A DNA stretch of 56,029 nucleotides from a virus. Under the pieces are notes generated by a model. The model was not told where the DNA came from. It was given only the letters and a program-made list of their open reading frames with translations, and made no database searches. The stretch spans positions 1-56,029 of IMG/VR virus record IMGVR_UViG_3300008108_000196; one strand, given 5' to 3'. Position 1 is the stretch's first letter; the number at the start of each line of letters is the position of its first letter. Both the position numbers and the translations under genes were made by a program. Of the stretch, positions 39,919 to 49,455 are shown piece by piece.

Positions 39919-41335
39919 TAACATTGGAAGCACTATCTTGTCTTCCATATGAATCTCTAATTAGTGTGAGATAGGTGGTGCATTTCTGATCCTTTGGACT
40001 GAATGCATGGTTCACTTCCGAGATCAAATACGTTCCGCTATGCTCACTATCATACAATGCTTGTGCTCTTTTACCTGTTGGGATCTGATTTGGTATTAAA
40101 ATCTCTATCTTATCACCGACTTTCAATTCTGGATTGCCAGTCACAGTTAAATTTACTTTCTGATTTTCTAGTGAATGATATCTAGATATTGACTGAGATA
40201 TATAATACTTTTGAAAATCTGGATAGCCACTTGTTTTTCCATTTGCTCCGTCTCTCTCTTCTGGCGATGCAGTTTCTTCTCCATCAAACCATGTCTCGTG
40301 ATCAAGAAGAACACTCATAATTCTGGTGGGATACTTAGACAATTCTTTCTGACCATATGGCAATCCTTTTTGTGATCCCATATGTCCCATGTTTTCATAT
40401 TCTTTTGCTAGTGAGTAAACATATTCTTCATAAGCACCAGTGCTATAGTTATAGAAACAAATTAAAGATGAGTAAGCACCCATTCTAAGTTTGCTCATGA
40501 TATCAATCTCATTATTGAAATCAATATCTAGAATCTTTCTATCAGGTGAACCACCAACGTTTGCATTCTCTTGAATGTATGTTGCTACGGGTTTCTCTCC
40601 ATTAAATTTGTCAGAAGAACATAACGAATCAACAGATTTGAAGAAGTATCCATCTCTATTTTCATAGAAGAAGTAACCTGCCGTGCCACCAGCTGATTGA
40701 TAATCTGCTTTATCTGTAGCAGCAATATCAGATGCTCCACCCTCACTGCTACCAGATTTTGCTGTGGATGATTTACCTTTTGACTTCACCGATGTTCCTT
40801 CTGGAACTGCTTTAGTTTTGATAGCATTGATGATCGAGAATGGACTTTTCTTTCCTGGTTGGAAGACCATATTATAGACAGATTTATCTACAGTAATTTC
40901 TTTCTCCGTCTTGAGATATGATTGTAGTATCTCTTGCACAATAGCATCTGGCTTACCACGTAAAGTTTTCGCTACACGAATACCCTCATTCAATAATGCT
41001 TCTGTTGATATAAGACCTAGAGTATATGTCTGGAATCTGTCAGCACCAAATCTATTATCAATTTTATATACTCTAAAAGAATATTCATAGGTTTCTTTGT
41101 TACCCATTTCTAAAGTAATCTCTACCTTTTCAAATCCTTGGATAGGCAAAGATGCAATTAAATTCTCTACACTATCAACTAACATTAACCTCGCTGATAT
41201 AGTAGGATAATGTATATTCTCAAAGTAATCAAATTTTATAGCAAGATCAGTTATATCAAATGACTTATTACTTTCTACCTGATAAATTAAAATTGATTTT
41301 ATTTTAAAACTTGCTGCGTATGGTAACTGTGACAT
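39914..41335 (-). CDS. 27: gp27-like baseplate hub protein (473 aa)
   Basis: Hub ring protein candidate. It has the phage hub pattern of an N-terminal beta domain (SFDITDLAIKFDYFENI, PTISARLMLVDS) and a middle domain with VYKIDNRFGADRFQTYTL. A low-complexity Ser/Gly linker follows (about 185-205), and the C-terminal domain has GNPELKVGDKIEIL and a closing strand pair (LISEVNH), as in gp27/gpD-type hubs. T4 gp27 is 391 residues. It is followed by the gp5 relative, matching the T4 gp27-gp5 complex. The ATG overlaps the stop of the upstream gene (TAATG). Confidence 0.7.
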   Translation of the reverse strand: MSQLPYAASFKIKSILIYQVESNKSFDITDLAIKFDYFENIHYPTISARLMLVDSVENLIASLPIQGFEKVEITLEMGNKETYEYSFRVYKIDNRFGADRFQTYTLGLISTEALLNEGIRVAKTLRGKPDAIVQEILQSYLKTEKEITVDKSVYNMVFQPGKKSPFSIINAIKTKAVPEGTSVKSKGKSSTAKSGSSEGGASDIAATDKADYQSAGGTAGYFFYENRDGYFFKSVDSLCSSDKFNGEKPVATYIQENANVGGSPDRKILDIDFNNEIDIMSKLRMGAYSSLICFYNYSTGAYEEYVYSLAKEYENMGHMGSQKGLPYGQKELSKYPTRIMSVLLDHETWFDGEETASPEERDGANGKTSGYPDFQKYYISQSISRYHSLENQKVNLTVTGNPELKVGDKIEILIPNQIPTGKRAQALYDSEHSGTYLISEVNHAFSPKDQKCTTYLTLIRDSYGRQDSASNVK

Positions 41336-43947
41336 TATCCTATGTATAATCCAGAATCTTTTAGTGGGTTTCTACCTGATGGAATTGTGCTATCACCTAA
41401 TGATGGTGGTGTTGCTGCTCCAGCTGTCTGAGTAGTATTTCCACCAGTATTTAATGCAACAATTTGTGGTTTAACATTCTGTCTTGGATTTGTAGAGATT
41501 TCTCCGAGAGTTTCCACTTTTGATTGCTGTGATGGTCTTTGGAATATAGGACTCGGAACTGCCATTACTTTTTCAGCAACGAATTTTTCTTTTTCTTTAC
41601 CTTTTAATCCCAATCTATCTGCTTCGGCTCTAGCAGCAATAGCAACTCTTTGTTGTTCTGCTGATGGTATTATATCTGGTCTTTGTCCATTTGCTAATGC
41701 TCCAGGTGGATTACCTGCTATTGAAGTTGTTGGAGTTGTAGATGGTTTATTAAATAATCCAGATGGGGCAGCCACTGCTCCTCTTGCTATCTGCTTACCA
41801 GAACCATACTGAACAGAAAAATAATTATCACTTTTTCCTCCTCGATGAACTTCTCCAGATGTTCCAGTACGATATCCACGAAATTCTGTTCTTCCTTGTA
41901 CATATGCAGATGCATTTTGTCTTAATTTAGGATCGGAAATAGCAGAAGCAGATTCTCGATACATTTTTCTTGCTCTATCTGCAGTAATAGACTGACCTCT
42001 AGCCTTGTAATAGTACATAATTGCTTTCACTGCATCATCTTCTGTTTTTATATTTTTAAATACATCAGCTATTTGTGTTCCAGCTCCACTAGATGCTTTT
42101 GGATCTTTAAATGCTACTTGATATTGTCCTTGTCTTGTAAGAATATCTGTAATAGAACTACCATATGATCCATCCCCCAATCTATTATAAACTGACTGAG
42201 CTACATCAGCTCTTCCTTGAGCAGATCCAGATTCAAGTGCAGCTACCGTAGCAAGTGTAGCAAAATCTTGCCCAGATCCACCAGCACCTGTTCCACCACC
42301 ACCCATACCATCTCCGCCTGCACCACCATCACCTGAAGTATCTACATCATTAATCTTTTTACCAAGAAGTTCCATAAACTTCCCAAAACCTTCTTTCAGT
42401 TTATCAAATATTCCTTTTTTCTTTTCTCCATCACCTTCTTTAGATTTATCTTCCTCTTCTGTTTTCTTAGCTATTGTTTTTGTTCCTGTTGCTTTGGTAA
42501 TAATAGACGAATTTAAACCAAATACACTAGCGAGAGGACGTTGTAGTTTACTCATTTCAGGAGCAATATCTTGTCCAGCAGATTCTCCCAAAACTTTAAC
42601 ATATTCCGATGTCAAAGCAAGAGCACCACCTCCAGCAGCCATTGGTATTAATTCCATAGCATCTATCAATGGTTGTGACGCATCGGTGTTTATATTGAGA
42701 GCTGCAGGAGCAAAATTATTTTTAGTACCCATTTCAAACTTTTGAATATTATTAATCATGGGAGTTTTTGGTTTTGGTTCTATTTTACCAGTCACTGCAC
42801 TCTTTTGTCCTTGTGTAAAATTATTATCAATTGGAATTACTTCACTTGGCTCATCAATTTTATGTAGATATCCACTGTCAGGACCAGATACAATTTTAAC
42901 ACCACGATCAGATGCCAGTGCTTCCGTGCCATGTAACTCCACTCCACCTTTACCAAACATTCCACCCCTTTCTGCCTTAGGATAACCATAAGCTTCCATA
43001 GAAGCAGTATCATTTACCATGCTATTAACTGGTTTTACTTCAGGTGGTTGCCTCAAGTAAGGATCCATCATTGCTTGCTCATTAGCAAAGGTAGAAAAAC
43101 TTCTACTTTCGTTGACTATTGTTCTCAAATCATCTGGTGTTTCTGCTCCAGCAGCAGCTCTCTTTCCTTCTAATTTACTTTCTTGTTGTATATCTTCTTT
43201 CTTGTCAATAAAATCTTTTTGTACTTGGGTTTGATTAGAAATTACATCAACTAATTTTTGTAGTTTATCTTCGAGTGTAGTATTTCTAACCTTAAGATCT
43301 TGTGCAACATCTGCTTGTAACTGATTGGCAGTAATCAGTGTTCCATAAACAGAAGCAGATGATTGTGTAATCGATTGCGCTGTTTTTTCAATTGATTTTG
43401 CAATAGCATCAATAGATTCAATAATTTGTTCTCTTGAAACTCTTTTACCAGTTCCTCCACCAATAGCATTTTGAACTTTCTTTCTCGTGCTAGGAACCTT
43501 TTCACTTTGTGGAGCAAACATTTCATCATAATCATTATAATCAAACTGACTACGAAACTTCTTAGCGTTCTTTAAATTTGCTTTAGAATATATTAATGAT
43601 TGTTTTAGTTGACCAATAACTTTTCCACGTAATTGTTTATTCTTAGATATCTTACCAAGAAGTAATCCTTTCCTATAAAGTGCAGCAAGTTCCTGTTTCT
43701 TTTTCTTGATAGCGAAGCCACCAAACTCACCTATCAATGCTTTCCTGAAAAAGAATCCAGGTGGATTCATTGCATCAAATTGAGCCTCATCAATACCCTG
43801 TTTCCATGCTTCTTTTTTGGCATAAGCACGTTCTTTATCTGCCATCACTTTGGCAGCAAGAACTTTGGAGATCATTGCTCCCATAGAATCTTTGAGGATT
43901 GTAGAATCTCCTCTCGTATCTACTGCGGTTTCAAACCCTGCTGCCAT
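41335..43947 (-). CDS. Tail protein with coiled coils and SleB-type cell-wall hydrolase (870 aa)
   Basis: The N-terminus is basic and helical (about 1-150), followed by coiled coil (about 170-275) ending KLEGKRAAAGAETPDDL, then a linker and a hydrolase domain at about 562-650 (ALESGSAQGRADVAQSVYNRL, then DILTRQGQYQVAF). That domain matches the SleB/Hydrolase_2 lytic transglycosylase family; E in ALESG is the likely catalytic residue. A Pro-rich end follows. Parts resemble the upstream 1291-residue gene. Likely a virion protein that opens peptidoglycan during injection. Strong AGGAAGG ribosome site; late motif at 43968. Confidence 0.75.
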   Translation of the reverse strand: MAAGFETAVDTRGDSTILKDSMGAMISKVLAAKVMADKERAYAKKEAWKQGIDEAQFDAMNPPGFFFRKALIGEFGGFAIKKKKQELAALYRKGLLLGKISKNKQLRGKVIGQLKQSLIYSKANLKNAKKFRSQFDYNDYDEMFAPQSEKVPSTRKKVQNAIGGGTGKRVSREQIIESIDAIAKSIEKTAQSITQSSASVYGTLITANQLQADVAQDLKVRNTTLEDKLQKLVDVISNQTQVQKDFIDKKEDIQQESKLEGKRAAAGAETPDDLRTIVNESRSFSTFANEQAMMDPYLRQPPEVKPVNSMVNDTASMEAYGYPKAERGGMFGKGGVELHGTEALASDRGVKIVSGPDSGYLHKIDEPSEVIPIDNNFTQGQKSAVTGKIEPKPKTPMINNIQKFEMGTKNNFAPAALNINTDASQPLIDAMELIPMAAGGGALALTSEYVKVLGESAGQDIAPEMSKLQRPLASVFGLNSSIITKATGTKTIAKKTEEEDKSKEGDGEKKKGIFDKLKEGFGKFMELLGKKINDVDTSGDGGAGGDGMGGGGTGAGGSGQDFATLATVAALESGSAQGRADVAQSVYNRLGDGSYGSSITDILTRQGQYQVAFKDPKASSGAGTQIADVFKNIKTEDDAVKAIMYYYKARGQSITADRARKMYRESASAISDPKLRQNASAYVQGRTEFRGYRTGTSGEVHRGGKSDNYFSVQYGSGKQIARGAVAAPSGLFNKPSTTPTTSIAGNPPGALANGQRPDIIPSAEQQRVAIAARAEADRLGLKGKEKEKFVAEKVMAVPSPIFQRPSQQSKVETLGEISTNPRQNVKPQIVALNTGGNTTQTAGAATPPSLGDSTIPSGRNPLKDSGLYIG

Positions 43948-43967: not shown

Positions 43968-43975
43968 TATTTATT
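43968..43975 (-). promoter_or_regulatory. Candidate late promoter AATAAATA
   Basis: Built on the TAA stop of the 1291-residue gene (CAA TAA ATA), 20 bases upstream of the next ATG. Confidence 0.55.
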
Positions 43976-46900
43976 GTAAGGATAGACGTAATTTTTCTAA
44001 TGTTCTTACATCATATTCTTTATCAGTCATCCACTTACCATTTGATTGTATAAAACTAACTCCATAATTTTGTGGTAGCGGCGGCATTTGTTGATTATTA
44101 ATTACCATATACATTTTCGATTCATCTGTGCCGTATGCATTGATTAATTCATTCTTTTTAGCAGGAGGAACATCAGGAGTAATATTATTCTTCATCATAA
44201 ACATGTCTGCTGGATTATCATTATCAACTTTTTCAAATTGTACTCCTTGAGATGCCATAAAATCTCTAACTAATGCATTGTTTTGTCCACCGCTTGTTTG
44301 TATTGGCATCATGCCATCAAAAAATTCAAATCCATTTTTTGTTTTGTGTGCTTTATATTGTTTACCACCAGAAGTAAACATTTTTTCTTGACCAGTTTTC
44401 ATACCAAAATTTTGTGTGATTTCTTGACCACTAGTTGGAGTTCCTGCATATGTTTCAAGTGGAGTAGATCCATTCGGATCTAATGATAATCCAGGTATTT
44501 TACCAGCTTGTATGTCAGCCATTTTAAGTGCTTTTTTCAGAATACTGCTACCAGCTTTATCTGGATCAATATGTTTTCCATTGACAATCATTTCAAAGTG
44601 TAAGTGAGGAGCACTACTAATGTTATCCGTCTTAGTAATTACACCAAGTTTTTGTCCTGCTTTAACTTGATCTCCAACTTTAACTGATGGAGTAACATGT
44701 AAATATTTTGTCTTAATATTATTAGCATGTTCAACTGTAATTCCATAACTAATTCCTCCCCCTGGAATATCAGCAACTTCAAATACTTGAGTAACCTTTC
44801 CTGGCAATGAGGAAACAAATTTCATTCCAGGAGGGCCAATTATGTCTCTACCCATATGTCTCCTTCCACCATCTCTAGGAGCACCAAACATAGCACCAGG
44901 ATAATCTTGTAGTTCACCTTGTTCCATTGGATTTACAATATTACCTTTAAGATCTCCTTCAATACCAGTACCATCATAATCTTCTAATGGAGCAAATGGA
45001 TTTCTTATTTTCTTTGCTAAGTTATCCAAGAAATTTTTAAACTTGTCTTCTGGATCTATCATCTTCAGTAATTTTTCAGCAAAACTCTCAGGATCTCCCT
45101 GCAATGCTTCTATTTCTTCACGGGACATACCCTCAAATCCATCTTTCATTGATTGCTTTTTCTTTTTATTTTTGATTCCATTAAATGTTCCTCCAAGATA
45201 AGAGAAACTACCCCCAACATTTGTCTGTGCTGTCGTTGATGGAAGTCCAAATAATTTAATTAACGGTGCTGCTTTTTGTTCAAACATTGGAGCAATAGAA
45301 GCACCAGCAGGACCAAGACCATTAATAAATTTGGATGCAGCAGAAACTAAAATTCCTCCAGCTGAATTAAATGGATTGAATTGATCTGCTTTATCTTTAT
45401 CAATCAGCATTTCTGTGCCGTGAAGAATAGCAGTTCCTGGTTTTGCTTCTTCTGTGCCCATTTCATATTGTTTTTTATCAGCTCCAGTAACTGTATCAGC
45501 AATTTTAGCCCCAGCATAACCACCAGCAGCACTGAACGCAGCGCCAATTAGAAGACCAGCTAAGGTTCCTACACCAGGGAACAGCATGGTGCCTATCGCC
45601 GCACCAGCAGCAGCACCAGCAAGACCACCACCGACACCTACAGCTGCCTGTACATCACTTTGTCCTGCTGATTTTCTATCACCATATTCCCAAACAGCAA
45701 GTGCCTGTTTTAATCCAGGAACATTTCTACCAACACCTTTTATTTTGGATACTCCACCCATTCCTTGAGCAGCAGATCTAGCTGAAGCTATATTCTTACC
45801 AAAATTTGCTGCTTTTGCTGGAAGCATTCTATTGATTTTACCAGCAGCTGCATTACTAATTCTACCAACTGCTTTACCAGGAACTCTTTGTACTTTTCTT
45901 CCAGCAGTTCTTAATGATCTTAATCTCTTAGGAAGTTTTCTGTATAAATTACGTACTAATTTTTGTCTATAATATTGTTGTATTCTATTAGTTCTTTTTT
46001 TGCCAGGTTTTTCTTTAGTTAAATCTTCAGGAACTTCTATCCCAGCAGAATCATACTGTCCTTCTAATTTTTGCTCTGCTTTTAATCTATCAATATCTTC
46101 TTTTGCTTTTTCAGATTGTTCATATTGTTTCTGAAAAGCATTTAAAATAGCATCAAATTTTCTTGTAAGGATATCGTCCTGAGCTTGTAATGCTTCAAGT
46201 GACGCTGTACTTATTTCAATATTTGTTCTAATTAAATCATTCTGCTCAAGCAAAGATTGATTTACTTGCTCAAGCTGTCCAGTAACTGCTGCTAAACTTT
46301 TGGTAATGCCTTGCAGTAGTTTAGTATTAGAAACGTAGTAAGATTTTCTTTCTTTAGTTCCTGTTTTCTTTCTTTTTTTGTTGAGTACTTCTTCTAGTGT
46401 TGTTGGATCAATAGAATCATCTAATACTTCATCTGGGATAGTTTCCTCCGATCCCATGCCATCATCTTCTTCATAATCTATTTCTTCAAAATCGTCATCA
46501 TCTTCATCTTCTTCAAAATCTTCTCCAAATTTACCTTCAAATGCTTCCTGCATTCGTTCAGCAAGTGTCTTACGACGAGTTGTACTTTGTTCTTCTTCTA
46601 CAGCATCTTCTAGCTCTTTTTTCTTCTCTTCAATCTGATCCTTAAGTTCTTCTGGATCTTCTGGATCTTCCGCTTCTTCATCCCTTACATTTCCAAGAAG
46701 ATCATCTAAGCTGTTGCCATAAAGATCATCATCCTCTTCTTCATCATCCTCTTCTTCATCCATTTCATCATAATCTTCTTCATCTTCCTCTTCTTCTTCT
46801 TCATACTCTTCTGGATCTTGATAAAACCCATCATAAACAGGAGGAACTTCTATTTCACCTACATCATCATTGTTTAGTATTTCTCGTATCGTTTCAAGAA

Positions 46901-47846
46901 TTTTTTTCTTATAAGATTTAATTATATCATAATCTTTCATATCATGTATCGATAAGCCAGTAGCTTCAAATAACCACGTTCTAAAATCTATTGTTTTTTG
47001 TTGAGTGGTTTTACTATAGTAACCTTCTTTATCTGTTGATTTAACAAGAGAATGATAAATGGCTTTATCAATATCAGATTCAAAATATACACTATATTTT
47101 CCTCTGTTTCCCCAAAGATAATGGGTATGAACTTTTTGTAAATGTAAAGGTAATTTTGGGTGGTTTACATTCTTTTTGACTGCTACTTCTTTTTCTTCTT
47201 TTGGTTTATCATTTACTACTATTTTTTCTGGTTGTTCATAAATTTTCTTTGTTCTATATTCAGGTAGATATGTATCTACTAACCAGTTTTGATATACTTC
47301 GTTGTGTATTCCCGATTGATCTTCAAGTGAGGGAAACTCTCCACTCTTCTTAATATTAGCGATCAATTTATCAGCATCTTTTTCTGATAAATCTACCTCA
47401 GAAAAATAACCTTTCCCAGTAAGTTGTGCTTTTAACGTTTCCCAAACACTTGGTCCAACTTGATTAAGCGAAAACCAATGTATTTGTATACCAGCAGGAG
47501 TTGCTGGTCTATTGTTTTTCTTTTCTGCTGGTGCTGGAGCCGATACTCTAGTATCAACCGCAACTTCAGCACCAGCAGAAGAGATATCATAAAATTCTTT
47601 TAGGTGTCTACGAATAGCACGAATGCCTTCCGTTTCTTTTCCGATTATTAAATCATTTTCAATAGTATCATAATATTCAGGAAGATCTGATGGTGCTAAC
47701 CATGTATCTTTACTAGCAGCAGTTTCTTTTGCTTTCTGTATTCCTTCACTTGTTTGTGGGAATACACCATAGGCTATGAGAGATCCAGCAGCAATTTCTA
47801 GATGGATCTCATTCTTAACTTTCTTTATAGCCTTTGGTGGTATCAT
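43971..47846 (-). CDS. Tape-measure-like tail protein with M23 peptidase domain (1291 aa)
   Basis: Order of regions: N-terminal domain (about 1-300); a block of Glu/Asp (about 340-385); coiled coil (about 490-600, ending KLEGQYDSAGIEVPEDL); a very basic helical stretch (about 605-690); a hydrophobic Gly/Ala zipper (about 728-785, GLLIGAAFSAAGGYAG); and an M23 (LytM) endopeptidase at about 985-1095 with zinc ligands in HMGRD and HLHFEM. Long helical proteins with zipper and hydrolase domains, lying behind frameshifted tail-chaperone genes, are usually tape measures. In T4 that role belongs to gp29 (590 aa), so here it is inferred. ATGA overlap with the frameshift frame. Confidence 0.7.
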   Translation of the reverse strand: MIPPKAIKKVKNEIHLEIAAGSLIAYGVFPQTSEGIQKAKETAASKDTWLAPSDLPEYYDTIENDLIIGKETEGIRAIRRHLKEFYDISSAGAEVAVDTRVSAPAPAEKKNNRPATPAGIQIHWFSLNQVGPSVWETLKAQLTGKGYFSEVDLSEKDADKLIANIKKSGEFPSLEDQSGIHNEVYQNWLVDTYLPEYRTKKIYEQPEKIVVNDKPKEEKEVAVKKNVNHPKLPLHLQKVHTHYLWGNRGKYSVYFESDIDKAIYHSLVKSTDKEGYYSKTTQQKTIDFRTWLFEATGLSIHDMKDYDIIKSYKKKILETIREILNNDDVGEIEVPPVYDGFYQDPEEYEEEEEEDEEDYDEMDEEEDDEEEDDDLYGNSLDDLLGNVRDEEAEDPEDPEELKDQIEEKKKELEDAVEEEQSTTRRKTLAERMQEAFEGKFGEDFEEDEDDDDFEEIDYEEDDGMGSEETIPDEVLDDSIDPTTLEEVLNKKRKKTGTKERKSYYVSNTKLLQGITKSLAAVTGQLEQVNQSLLEQNDLIRTNIEISTASLEALQAQDDILTRKFDAILNAFQKQYEQSEKAKEDIDRLKAEQKLEGQYDSAGIEVPEDLTKEKPGKKRTNRIQQYYRQKLVRNLYRKLPKRLRSLRTAGRKVQRVPGKAVGRISNAAAGKINRMLPAKAANFGKNIASARSAAQGMGGVSKIKGVGRNVPGLKQALAVWEYGDRKSAGQSDVQAAVGVGGGLAGAAAGAAIGTMLFPGVGTLAGLLIGAAFSAAGGYAGAKIADTVTGADKKQYEMGTEEAKPGTAILHGTEMLIDKDKADQFNPFNSAGGILVSAASKFINGLGPAGASIAPMFEQKAAPLIKLFGLPSTTAQTNVGGSFSYLGGTFNGIKNKKKKQSMKDGFEGMSREEIEALQGDPESFAEKLLKMIDPEDKFKNFLDNLAKKIRNPFAPLEDYDGTGIEGDLKGNIVNPMEQGELQDYPGAMFGAPRDGGRRHMGRDIIGPPGMKFVSSLPGKVTQVFEVADIPGGGISYGITVEHANNIKTKYLHVTPSVKVGDQVKAGQKLGVITKTDNISSAPHLHFEMIVNGKHIDPDKAGSSILKKALKMADIQAGKIPGLSLDPNGSTPLETYAGTPTSGQEITQNFGMKTGQEKMFTSGGKQYKAHKTKNGFEFFDGMMPIQTSGGQNNALVRDFMASQGVQFEKVDNDNPADMFMMKNNITPDVPPAKKNELINAYGTDESKMYMVINNQQMPPLPQNYGVSFIQSNGKWMTDKEYDVRTLEKLRLSLQ

Positions 47847-48735
47847 TGATTAGCTGCTTCTTGCTTTGCTTTCTCTTCTTTAATATGTTGTTTCAACAAT
47901 GCAATGTAAACATCCCTCTCCCATGGTATGAGGTTTTCAATCTCAGTCAAAGAGTATTTATGATACTGCATCAAAGCAAAGTTAGTTTTATAATACCCTT
48001 CCAAACTTTCTTGGAAGAGTGCTATGCGAAAAAATTCTGCAGACCCTCGATAACATAATCAGATTCCTCTCCAGTATTAGGATTCTTCACGGTAAACTTA
48101 TGCTGTAGTTTAGGCATAGTCTCATAAAATTTTTGAATCTCTTCAAACTGTTTAGCAGTAAGAGTTTCTACCCATTCAACCATTTCTTTTTTGGATGTAG
48201 TAGAAGAATCCCACACCTCTTCTACATCAAAGATTTGATCAATAGATTCAGCAATAAATTCAAATACTTCTTCAGTCTTCACCGACTTATCAAGGAATTC
48301 TGTTTCAATAAATCTATCCATGCTTGGATACTTCATCATGATACCCATAGTATTAGTCAGCATGATCTTATTGGTATGACCTTCTGGTTTGAATACTTCA
48401 ATGTCATTAATATTAATCTTTTTTTCTACCTGCGTCTTGCCATCATCTCTACAAGTTACATTCATTGTAATAACTTCACCCACGGCAGCAGCACGAATCT
48501 TCATGAAAATATACTCAAGATCAAAGGAAGGAAGTTCTTCTACTTTAATTCTTGTAAGAACACAGTTCTTAATCAAATCTTTTACCGCTTGCTTTACTTC
48601 TTTCTCATCCTCAGATTCCAAAGCAAGTAGTAATACCTTTTCTTCTTTTACAATAAAAGGTCTATATTTAATTGTCTTCCCATTTGAGGGTAACTCCAAT
48701 TCGTATGTTGGATAACCAACCTTAGGTAATGCCAT
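47843..48735 (-). CDS. gp26-gp51-type fusion made by -1 frameshift (297 aa)
   Basis: Predicted product when ribosomes slip -1 on the T TTT TTC heptamer (48028-48034). It has 236 residues of the gp26-like protein and then 61 residues beginning RIALFQESLEGYYK and ending KQEAANQ. The extension frame opens after a TGA inside gp26 and has no ATG or GTG before its residue 20; the only earlier candidate is a TTG without a good ribosome site. The extension contains SLTEIENLIPWERDVY, typical of small T4-type hub assembly proteins in this position. Its stop overlaps the tape-measure ATG. The exact parallel is lambda gpG/gpGT. Confidence 0.7.
47996..48034 (-). promoter_or_regulatory. -1 programmed ribosomal frameshift signal
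   Basis: Slippery heptamer TTTTTTC in the gp26 reading frame (codons TTT TTC), two codons before the TAG stop. Eight bases of spacer follow, then a 9-bp hairpin CTCTTCCAA-GAAAGT-TTGGAAGGG (one T-G pair). All three elements are in the normal order and spacing for bacterial and phage -1 frameshifting. Confidence 0.75.
48022..48735 (-). CDS. 26: gp26-like baseplate/tail assembly protein (237 aa)
   Basis: Matches the T4 gp26 type (T4_baseplate family): N-terminal PTYELELPSNGKTIKYRPF, then EEKVLLLALES, KNCVLTRIKVEELPSFDLEY and IRAAAVGEVI. T4 gp26 (208 aa) is listed as a hub assembly protein. It is late: a GATAAATA motif at 48760-48767 lies 24 bases upstream, made from the previous gene's stop. 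The end of the gene carries a frameshift signal, so it should exist in a short and a long form. Confidence 0.85.
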   Translation of the reverse strand: MALPKVGYPTYELELPSNGKTIKYRPFIVKEEKVLLLALESEDEKEVKQAVKDLIKNCVLTRIKVEELPSFDLEYIFMKIRAAAVGEVITMNVTCRDDGKTQVEKKININDIEVFKPEGHTNKIMLTNTMGIMMKYPSMDRFIETEFLDKSVKTEEVFEFIAESIDQIFDVEEVWDSSTTSKKEMVEWVETLTAKQFEEIQKFYETMPKLQHKFTVKNPNTGEESDYVIEGLQNFFA

Positions 48736-48759: not shown

Positions 48760-48767
48760 TATTTATC
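48760..48767 (-). promoter_or_regulatory. Candidate late promoter GATAAATA
   Basis: Minus strand GATAAATA formed by the last codon and stop of the tube-like gene (GGA TAA ATA), 24 bases before the gp26-like ATG. Confidence 0.6.
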
Positions 48768-49455
48768 CCTTATACTTACGAATGTCTGCTACAGTAGTCC
48801 TCATCTGATCATAATAAAAACTTGCACTTACCCTGGTAATCTGTGATGTTCCATATGATAGTGGCACAGCATCAATACTATATGGATAAACTCCCGTCAT
48901 CAAATGTACTAATGGTGTTCTTGAGTTTGGCGCATTAGCACCTTTTTCTGTCTTTGCTATACGTAATGTTGCTTGATATTCATTAGGATACTGCATTCTC
49001 ATGCTCAAATTTTGAGCTACAGGTATTGTATTTGATTTAAAATTCTTTAGCCTATCAGAACTATCTTTAAATAATGTAGTTCCTTGCATAAAATTATACC
49101 AAGCAAGCAAGAATTTATATGGTGCCATGTTAGCATCACACATCCATGTCAAACTAAAGTCAGTAATCAATCTAGTATGAGCATAATTTAAATTACCTCT
49201 GCCGAGATATCTACCATTGATTTGCCCAGTAGCAAATTGCATACCAGGAAGTTGTGCTTCATCACAAAACATATTAACCAATGATCCTGGTTTTCCACTA
49301 TCGTTAGCAGAATTTATATCAATTCCAATGTCTTTTAAAATACTAGACAATTTACTATTTTTTGACAAATCAAATTGCACATCATAACCATTGGTCATGG
49401 ACATGCCACCATTTGCACTGATGGCTGCCATAAAGTTGCTGATTGATCCTGCCAC
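48763..49455 (-). CDS. Tail-tube-like protein, gp19/gp54 family (230 aa)
   Basis: Tube-fold pattern: FCDEAQLPGMQF, GRYLGRGN, the long strand ITDFSLTWMCDANM, then YKFLLAWYNFM, as in T4 gp19 and in the tube-initiator gp54. Being next to hub genes, and across from gp48, favours the initiator (gp54) role over the main tube. Starts with GTG at 49455; a downstream ATG at residue 9 is possible. A divergent late motif CATAAATA lies 26 bases upstream, overlapping the gp4 start. Confidence 0.65.
   Translation of the reverse strand: MAGSISNFMAAISANGGMSMTNGYDVQFDLSKNSKLSSILKDIGIDINSANDSGKPGSLVNMFCDEAQLPGMQFATGQINGRYLGRGNLNYAHTRLITDFSLTWMCDANMAPYKFLLAWYNFMQGTTLFKDSSDRLKNFKSNTIPVAQNLSMRMQYPNEYQATLRIAKTEKGANAPNSRTPLVHLMTGVYPYSIDAVPLSYGTSQITRVSASFYYDQMRTTVADIRKYKG

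Follow-up and report, generated by a model that had tools for sequence, protein, structure and literature searches.

A probable programmed -1 frameshift joining a gp26-like gene to a gp51-type domain in a virus fragment and its T4-type relatives

The sequence analysed here comes from IMG/VR (IMGVR_UViG_3300008108_000196, a virus fragment) and is 56,029 bases long; the whole stretch is referred to as the window. The gene order at the locus is a tube-type gene, a chaperone gene and a long gene, and the features are as follows:

48763..49455 (-), tail-tube type protein, directly upstream of the gp26-like gene (PF23849 Phage_TTP_2, E=7e-47; phrog_45, tail tube)
48022..48735 (-), gp26-like gene, putative short tail assembly chaperone (TAC-N), 237 aa (PF12322, E=3e-73; phrog_150, E=5e-78, positions 5-232 of 282)
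48044..48048 (-), GAGGG, internal Shine-Dalgarno-like (SD-like) element, 9 nt upstream of the heptamer
48028..48034 (-), slippery heptamer T TTT TTC, in the X XXY YYZ phase of the 0 frame and in phase in 59/59 distinct relatives
48022..48024 (-), 0-frame stop TAG, one codon past the slip codons, with identical spacing in 53/59 relatives
47995..48020 (-), downstream hairpin of 11 pairs, arms 48020-48010 / 48005-47995, spacer 7-8 nt
47843..48028 (-), extension in the -1 frame, gp51-type C-terminal domain, 61 aa (phrog_634, E=6e-28; phrog_150 positions 232-282)
43971..47846 (-), 1291-aa gene, probable tape measure, with an M23 peptidase domain (PF01551, E=3e-17), directly after the chaperone gene

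The gp26-like protein was modelled with AlphaFold2 (pLDDT 89.4, pTM 0.83). The Foldseek comparison of the model with the PDB gave no significant structural match; the highest probability (0.72) was obtained for the HK97 tail chaperone 2ob9, yet with E=0.85 over 56 columns, and the likeness to this tail assembly chaperone is suggestive only. The comparison with a viral structure library returned gp26-type baseplate proteins. No sequence homologue of the gp26 profile was found in the PDB, and the NCBIfam scan of gp26 and the extension gave nothing useful.

The 237-aa open reading frame (48735..48022) ends with CAG AAT TTT TTC GCA TAG. The scan of viral contigs for gp26 relatives yielded 80 loci with 59 distinct gp26 sequences of 38-95% identity, including those of the named phages S-RSM4, S-CAM3 and S-CAM1. 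An in-phase NNT TTT TT(C/T) is present at the junction in all 59 (TTTTTTC in 55, TTTTTTT in 4), so the slippery heptamer that marks systems of the lambda G/GT type occurs in every distinct relative. The codon preceding the Phe-Phe pair encodes N, S, D or A, and its third base is T in every case, while 66% of the codons for the same residues elsewhere end in T. Phe-Phe pairs elsewhere in the gp26 genes are mostly written TTC TTT (20/33), and TTT TTC is used in only 3/33. The occurrence of the heptamer in phase in 59/59 relatives, set against this usage, is beyond chance. For the choice of codons at the junction alone, log10 P = -6.2 was obtained from 22 representatives with <75% identity, a figure that serves only as a guide because the sequences are related. 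The heptamer of four contigs (L058-L061) lies 24 nt before the stop. A divergent group (L063, L070, L072, L078) has its stop 6-9 nt past the heptamer, an ATG near the stop and an extension start unlike that of the main group.

After a -1 slip, reading would continue as CGC ATA GCA CTC... (R I A L F Q E S L E G Y Y K T N F A L M Q...) for 61 codons, up to the TGA at 47845..47843, which overlaps the ATG of the next gene (47846) as ATGA. The predicted fusion (TAC-NC) is about 297 aa long; its junction in the window reads EGLQNFFR, then IALFQESLEGYYK, and the predicted product spans EGLQNFFRIALFQ at the slip junction. The open -1 frame is limited upstream by a stop 37 nt before the gp26 stop. Its first ATG is codon 20, with no GTG before it and with TTG at codons 9 and 19. 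The extension matches phrog_634, labelled 'baseplate hub assembly catalyst' (gp51), and the gp51 domain is found in the -1 frame at every locus where both parts were scorable.

The stretch from the gp26 stop to the ATG at codon 20 was compared among 20 close relatives. The per-position difference was 0.077/0.100/0.339, with the third positions of the -1 frame highest. Read in the -1 frame, 711 single changes are synonymous vs 349 nonsynonymous, and in the other two frames they are mostly nonsynonymous. Since synonymous changes prevail in no frame but -1, this stretch is evidently translated in that frame, an outcome not expected from internal initiation at codon 20. Among the 59 loci, 18 have no ATG, GTG or TTG within the first 15 codons of the extension, no start is conserved, and no SD-like sequence was found ahead of the candidate starts in this part. 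The extension is, as in lambda G/GT, a -1 frame under coding constraint without a start of its own. The preliminary description had read the heptamer and the 3' end of the gp26-like gene correctly to the base, and its account of the open -1 frame (61 codons to a TGA overlapping the next ATG, no ATG or GTG before residue 20) was confirmed. It had asked for the conservation of the gp26 ends of relatives, which was found for the heptamer (59/59) and for the -1 frame throughout, and it had named a proper start with a ribosome site as evidence against a fusion; neither a conserved start nor an SD-like sequence ahead of the candidates was seen in the 59 loci.

The public annotation suggests another product, namely a separate small gp51 protein initiated within the -1 frame at the codon-20 ATG, with no fusion. 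This ATG is present in most cyanophage loci, and gp51 starts at it in the S-RSM4 and S-CAM3 records. In the public cyanophage records (L083, L084, L085, L099, L101, L102), gp51 is annotated from an internal ATG or is absent, and it is never joined to gp26: it starts from an internal ATG in S-RSM4, S-CAM3 and Melnitz-2 and was missed in S-CAM1, ACG-2014d and P19, and no joined gp26-gp51 gene was annotated among the public records viewed. However, the codon-20 ATG lies inside the conserved domain, the constraint on -1 coding sequence covers the 19 codons ahead of it, several relatives lack this ATG (e.g., L054, L058 and L063), and the in-frame starts of the first 15 codons have no SD-like sequence before them. 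A separate gp51 would also leave the choice of slippery codons unexplained, and the T4 counterpart of the domain forms the C-terminal part of a 249-aa protein. Given the start codons and the -1 coding constraint, independent initiation of gp51 was rejected as very improbable.

Termination followed by reinitiation at a start overlapping or just past the gp26 stop would release the extension as a free domain, either instead of the fusion or in addition to it. Overlaps of the TAATG/TGATG type, which would allow it, occur in nt-1, phiM12, the Rhizobium and Agrobacterium phages and some Ackermannviridae. Since the overlapping ATG is absent from the window, most cyanophages, P19 and Otagovirus, and the slippery heptamer is retained even where the overlap exists, this explanation of the locus is just as hard to credit as a separately initiated gp51. 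Ribosomal slippage at the heptamer is the reading retained below.

Two elements flank the heptamer. At the GAGGG site upstream, the Glu codon is GAG in 32/40 sequences vs 26% elsewhere. The pairing with the anti-SD tail of 16S rRNA averaged -6.5 kcal/mol in 22 representatives vs -5.0 (SD 0.26) in synonymous variants, a value that 0/400 null sets reached. The SD-like element is favoured beyond the requirements of its amino acids, and the conserved Glu-Gly accounts for part of it. The inventory of signals drawn up earlier had overlooked this element, although it is at least as widespread as the hairpin.

The hairpin downstream (42-nt segment) has a stability of -13.1 kcal/mol, with z = -4.2 vs synonymous variants, and in the close group z ranges from about -2.4 to -4.9. 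Pairing is maintained in 94% of cells in 19 close relatives, with a compensatory change from C-G to G-C in 4, and the covariation score was reached by 0/500 shuffles. In distant lineages this hairpin is either replaced or missing. Other hairpins of equal stability were found in L021 and L041/L044/L045. No significant downstream structure was detected in L022, L029-L033, L047 and L062-L067, all of which retain the heptamer, and the hairpin was ruled out as a universal element of the signal. Likewise, the 9-bp hairpin described earlier is real and lies within the 11 pairs, but as a general part of the signal it did not stand, being limited to some lineages. Across the relatives compared, the heptamer appears as the constant element, the SD-like site as a common one and the hairpin as a lineage-specific one.

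The frameshift of E. coli dnaX combines an internal Shine-Dalgarno sequence upstream, a heptamer and a downstream hairpin. The same three-part -1 signal (SD about 10 nt upstream, hairpin about 5-8 nt downstream) is present in the window and its close relatives, in another gene and with another heptamer, and with a hairpin that is lineage-restricted among the gp26 relatives; the role of the SD in dnaX frameshifting has been stated (PMC5600365). Transcriptional slippage on the T6-T7 run could also make the fusion, and the homopolymer run is found at the site in all relatives, but with 6 T followed by C in 55/59 the run is short, its X XXY YYZ phase is strict and both flanking elements act on the ribosome, which makes this the least probable of the alternatives.

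Profile searches vs T4 matched the gp26 profile to residues 4-207 of T4 gp26 and the extension profile to residues 207-243 of T4 gp51. In the PHROG scan, T4 gp51 matched phrog_150 (13-280) and phrog_634, while T4 gp26 matched only phrog_150 (14-235), and T4 gp26 terminates at the slip position (...GLKEFFELL). The short form is related to gp26, and the long form to gp51 including its C-terminal domain. Based on the profile and PHROG matches, T4 gp51 corresponds to the unbroken long form and T4 gp26 to the short form, which would explain both as tail assembly chaperones and would also account for gp26 and gp51 acting as a pair in T4. The earlier proposal that gp26 and the protein at the gp51 position are the two forms of a tail chaperone is supported by this homology. 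The proteins are homologous and gp51 carries the same C-terminal domain as the extension in the window; the difference lies in the gene arrangement. The gp26 and gp51 genes of T4 are divergent, and in Cronobacter phage leN (Pseudotevenvirus) and Pectobacterium phage POP12 they lie side by side with the long gene first, whereas the window has one gene and a frameshift.

Taken together, a -1 programmed frameshift at the end of gp26 that produces a gp26-gp51 fusion, with gp26 and the fusion as the short and long tail assembly chaperones, is highly probable. The sequence shows the signal, both reading frames, how well these are conserved and that the extension is homologous to T4 gp51; slippage, its efficiency and the chaperone function are inferred from this in the following form. 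The majority of ribosomes would translate gp26 (TAC-N) and terminate at the TAG. A minority would pause at UUU UUC owing to the upstream pairing of GAGGG with 16S rRNA and, in the lineage of the window, to the hairpin 7-8 nt downstream. The paused ribosomes, their two sites occupied by tRNA-Phe, would move back by one base and would read 61 more codons, giving the 297-aa long form (TAC-NC) with the gp51 domain. The lambda G/GT system suggests the roles of the two products: a short form that would coat the tape measure protein (probably the 1291-aa product) and a long form that would bring in tail tube subunits.

Further phages share the -1 layout, their heptamer being T TTT TTC, T TTT TTT or T TTT TTG: phiM12, Astolliot and Milchi (Otagovirus type), Mendera, whose extension is weakly recognisable, Aeromonas phage P19 (Ceceduovirus), Vibrio phage nt-1 (Mylasvirus), Rhizobium and Agrobacterium Pootjesviridae and Methylophilales phage Melnitz-2. 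Emdodecavirus is likewise among the groups with this layout. As P19 and nt-1 are Straboviridae, both states exist within the family of T4 itself. On this sequence comparison, it is very likely that the frameshift is real, old and widespread in T4-type phages beyond the T4 lineage proper. With moderate confidence we favour a split of the T4-type phages, in which the frameshift is widespread and probably ancestral (Kyanoviridae, Otagovirus, Emdodecavirus, Menderavirus, Pootjesviridae, Mylasvirus and Ceceduovirus), with the dnaX-like three-part signal in cyanophages, and the T4 and Pseudotevenvirus lineages replaced it with separate gp51 and gp26 genes. If this is true, the exception of T4 to the G/GT rule would be a later gene-duplication event, and the regulatory elements known from tail chaperone frameshifts would be joined by a new one, the internal Shine-Dalgarno sequence. 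Homologues in a frameshift state and in a two-gene state lend themselves to a natural comparison of what determines the ratio of short to long form.

The slippery heptamer occurs together with a TAATG/TGATG overlap in Vibrio phage nt-1 (L093), phiM12 (L086) and the Pootjesviridae (L096-L098), and in view of this combination frameshifting and reinitiation might both operate there. The Ackermannviridae and related Vibrio phages (L090, L091, L092) have an extension-like domain in the -1 frame, without the six-T heptamer. A frameshift based on the heptamer was not supported for those sampled (GR28A, K448 and Maynard), which lack the six-T heptamer; GR28A and K448 have an ATG at or near the stop.

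Vladimirov, Gautam and Davidson reportedly identified the T4-like tail assembly chaperones in 2022 (PMID 34826709), under a title that is said to propose a mechanism other than frameshifting. The identification of gp26/gp51 as tail assembly chaperones is already published in that work. The passage of PRFect that concerns it mentions 'some T4-like phages' with a short and a fused long gene (PMC10885494), and the corresponding passage of the Adele paper credits it with poly-T slippery signals in T4-like chaperone genes (PMC12846349). As far as these citing passages go, T4-like chaperones were already in print, and the preliminary remark that no established case was known for T4-type gp26/gp51 is out of date. 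The literature search found no other account of the cyanophage frameshift, which Vladimirov et al. 2022 may already describe. The heptamer of lambda G/GT is G GGA AAG, and the window differs from that system in its U UUU UUC, the upstream SD-like element, the hairpin and the PF12322 protein. In lambda the ribosome slips by -1 shortly before the short chaperone gene ends and enters a -1 extension, with tube and tape measure genes adjoining (PMC5009743); the window has the corresponding signal, extension and tube-type gene, and a probable tape measure gene. Phage Adele (Vandenendeviridae/Andersonviridae) likewise has a conserved -1 frameshift ahead of the tape measure gene (PMC12846349), with the poly-T motif GTTTTT and not T TTT TTC; the likeness noted is one of layout.

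The frameshifting of G-T has been described as broadly conserved with T4 as the exception (Atkins et al. 2016, PMC5009743), and gp26 and gp51 have long been counted among the assembly factors of the T4 hub, with a function that was unclear (PMC3004832). The cyanophage frameshift is, judging by its signal and layout, a known kind of system at a place that reviews list as the exception. It would bring a very abundant marine and freshwater virus group under the lambda G/GT rule, to which T4 is the stated exception (PMC5009743), and it would mean that gp51 is misannotated or missed in the sampled cyanophage genomes.

The 1291-aa product has hydrophobic segments at 734-780 and weak matches to tape-measure PHROGs. 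Its position, the hydrophobic segments, the M23 domain and these matches make it a probable tape measure and no more than that, as neither this product nor the 870-aa one has detectable similarity to T4 gp29. The M23 peptidase domain lies near the C-terminus, and a long acidic repeat-like stretch was seen around residues 360-480. The 870-aa gene (41335-43947, (-)) follows the 1291-aa gene and encodes a cell-wall hydrolase domain (PF07486). The two products show weak mutual similarity, so that each is a candidate for the tape measure or for a part of it.
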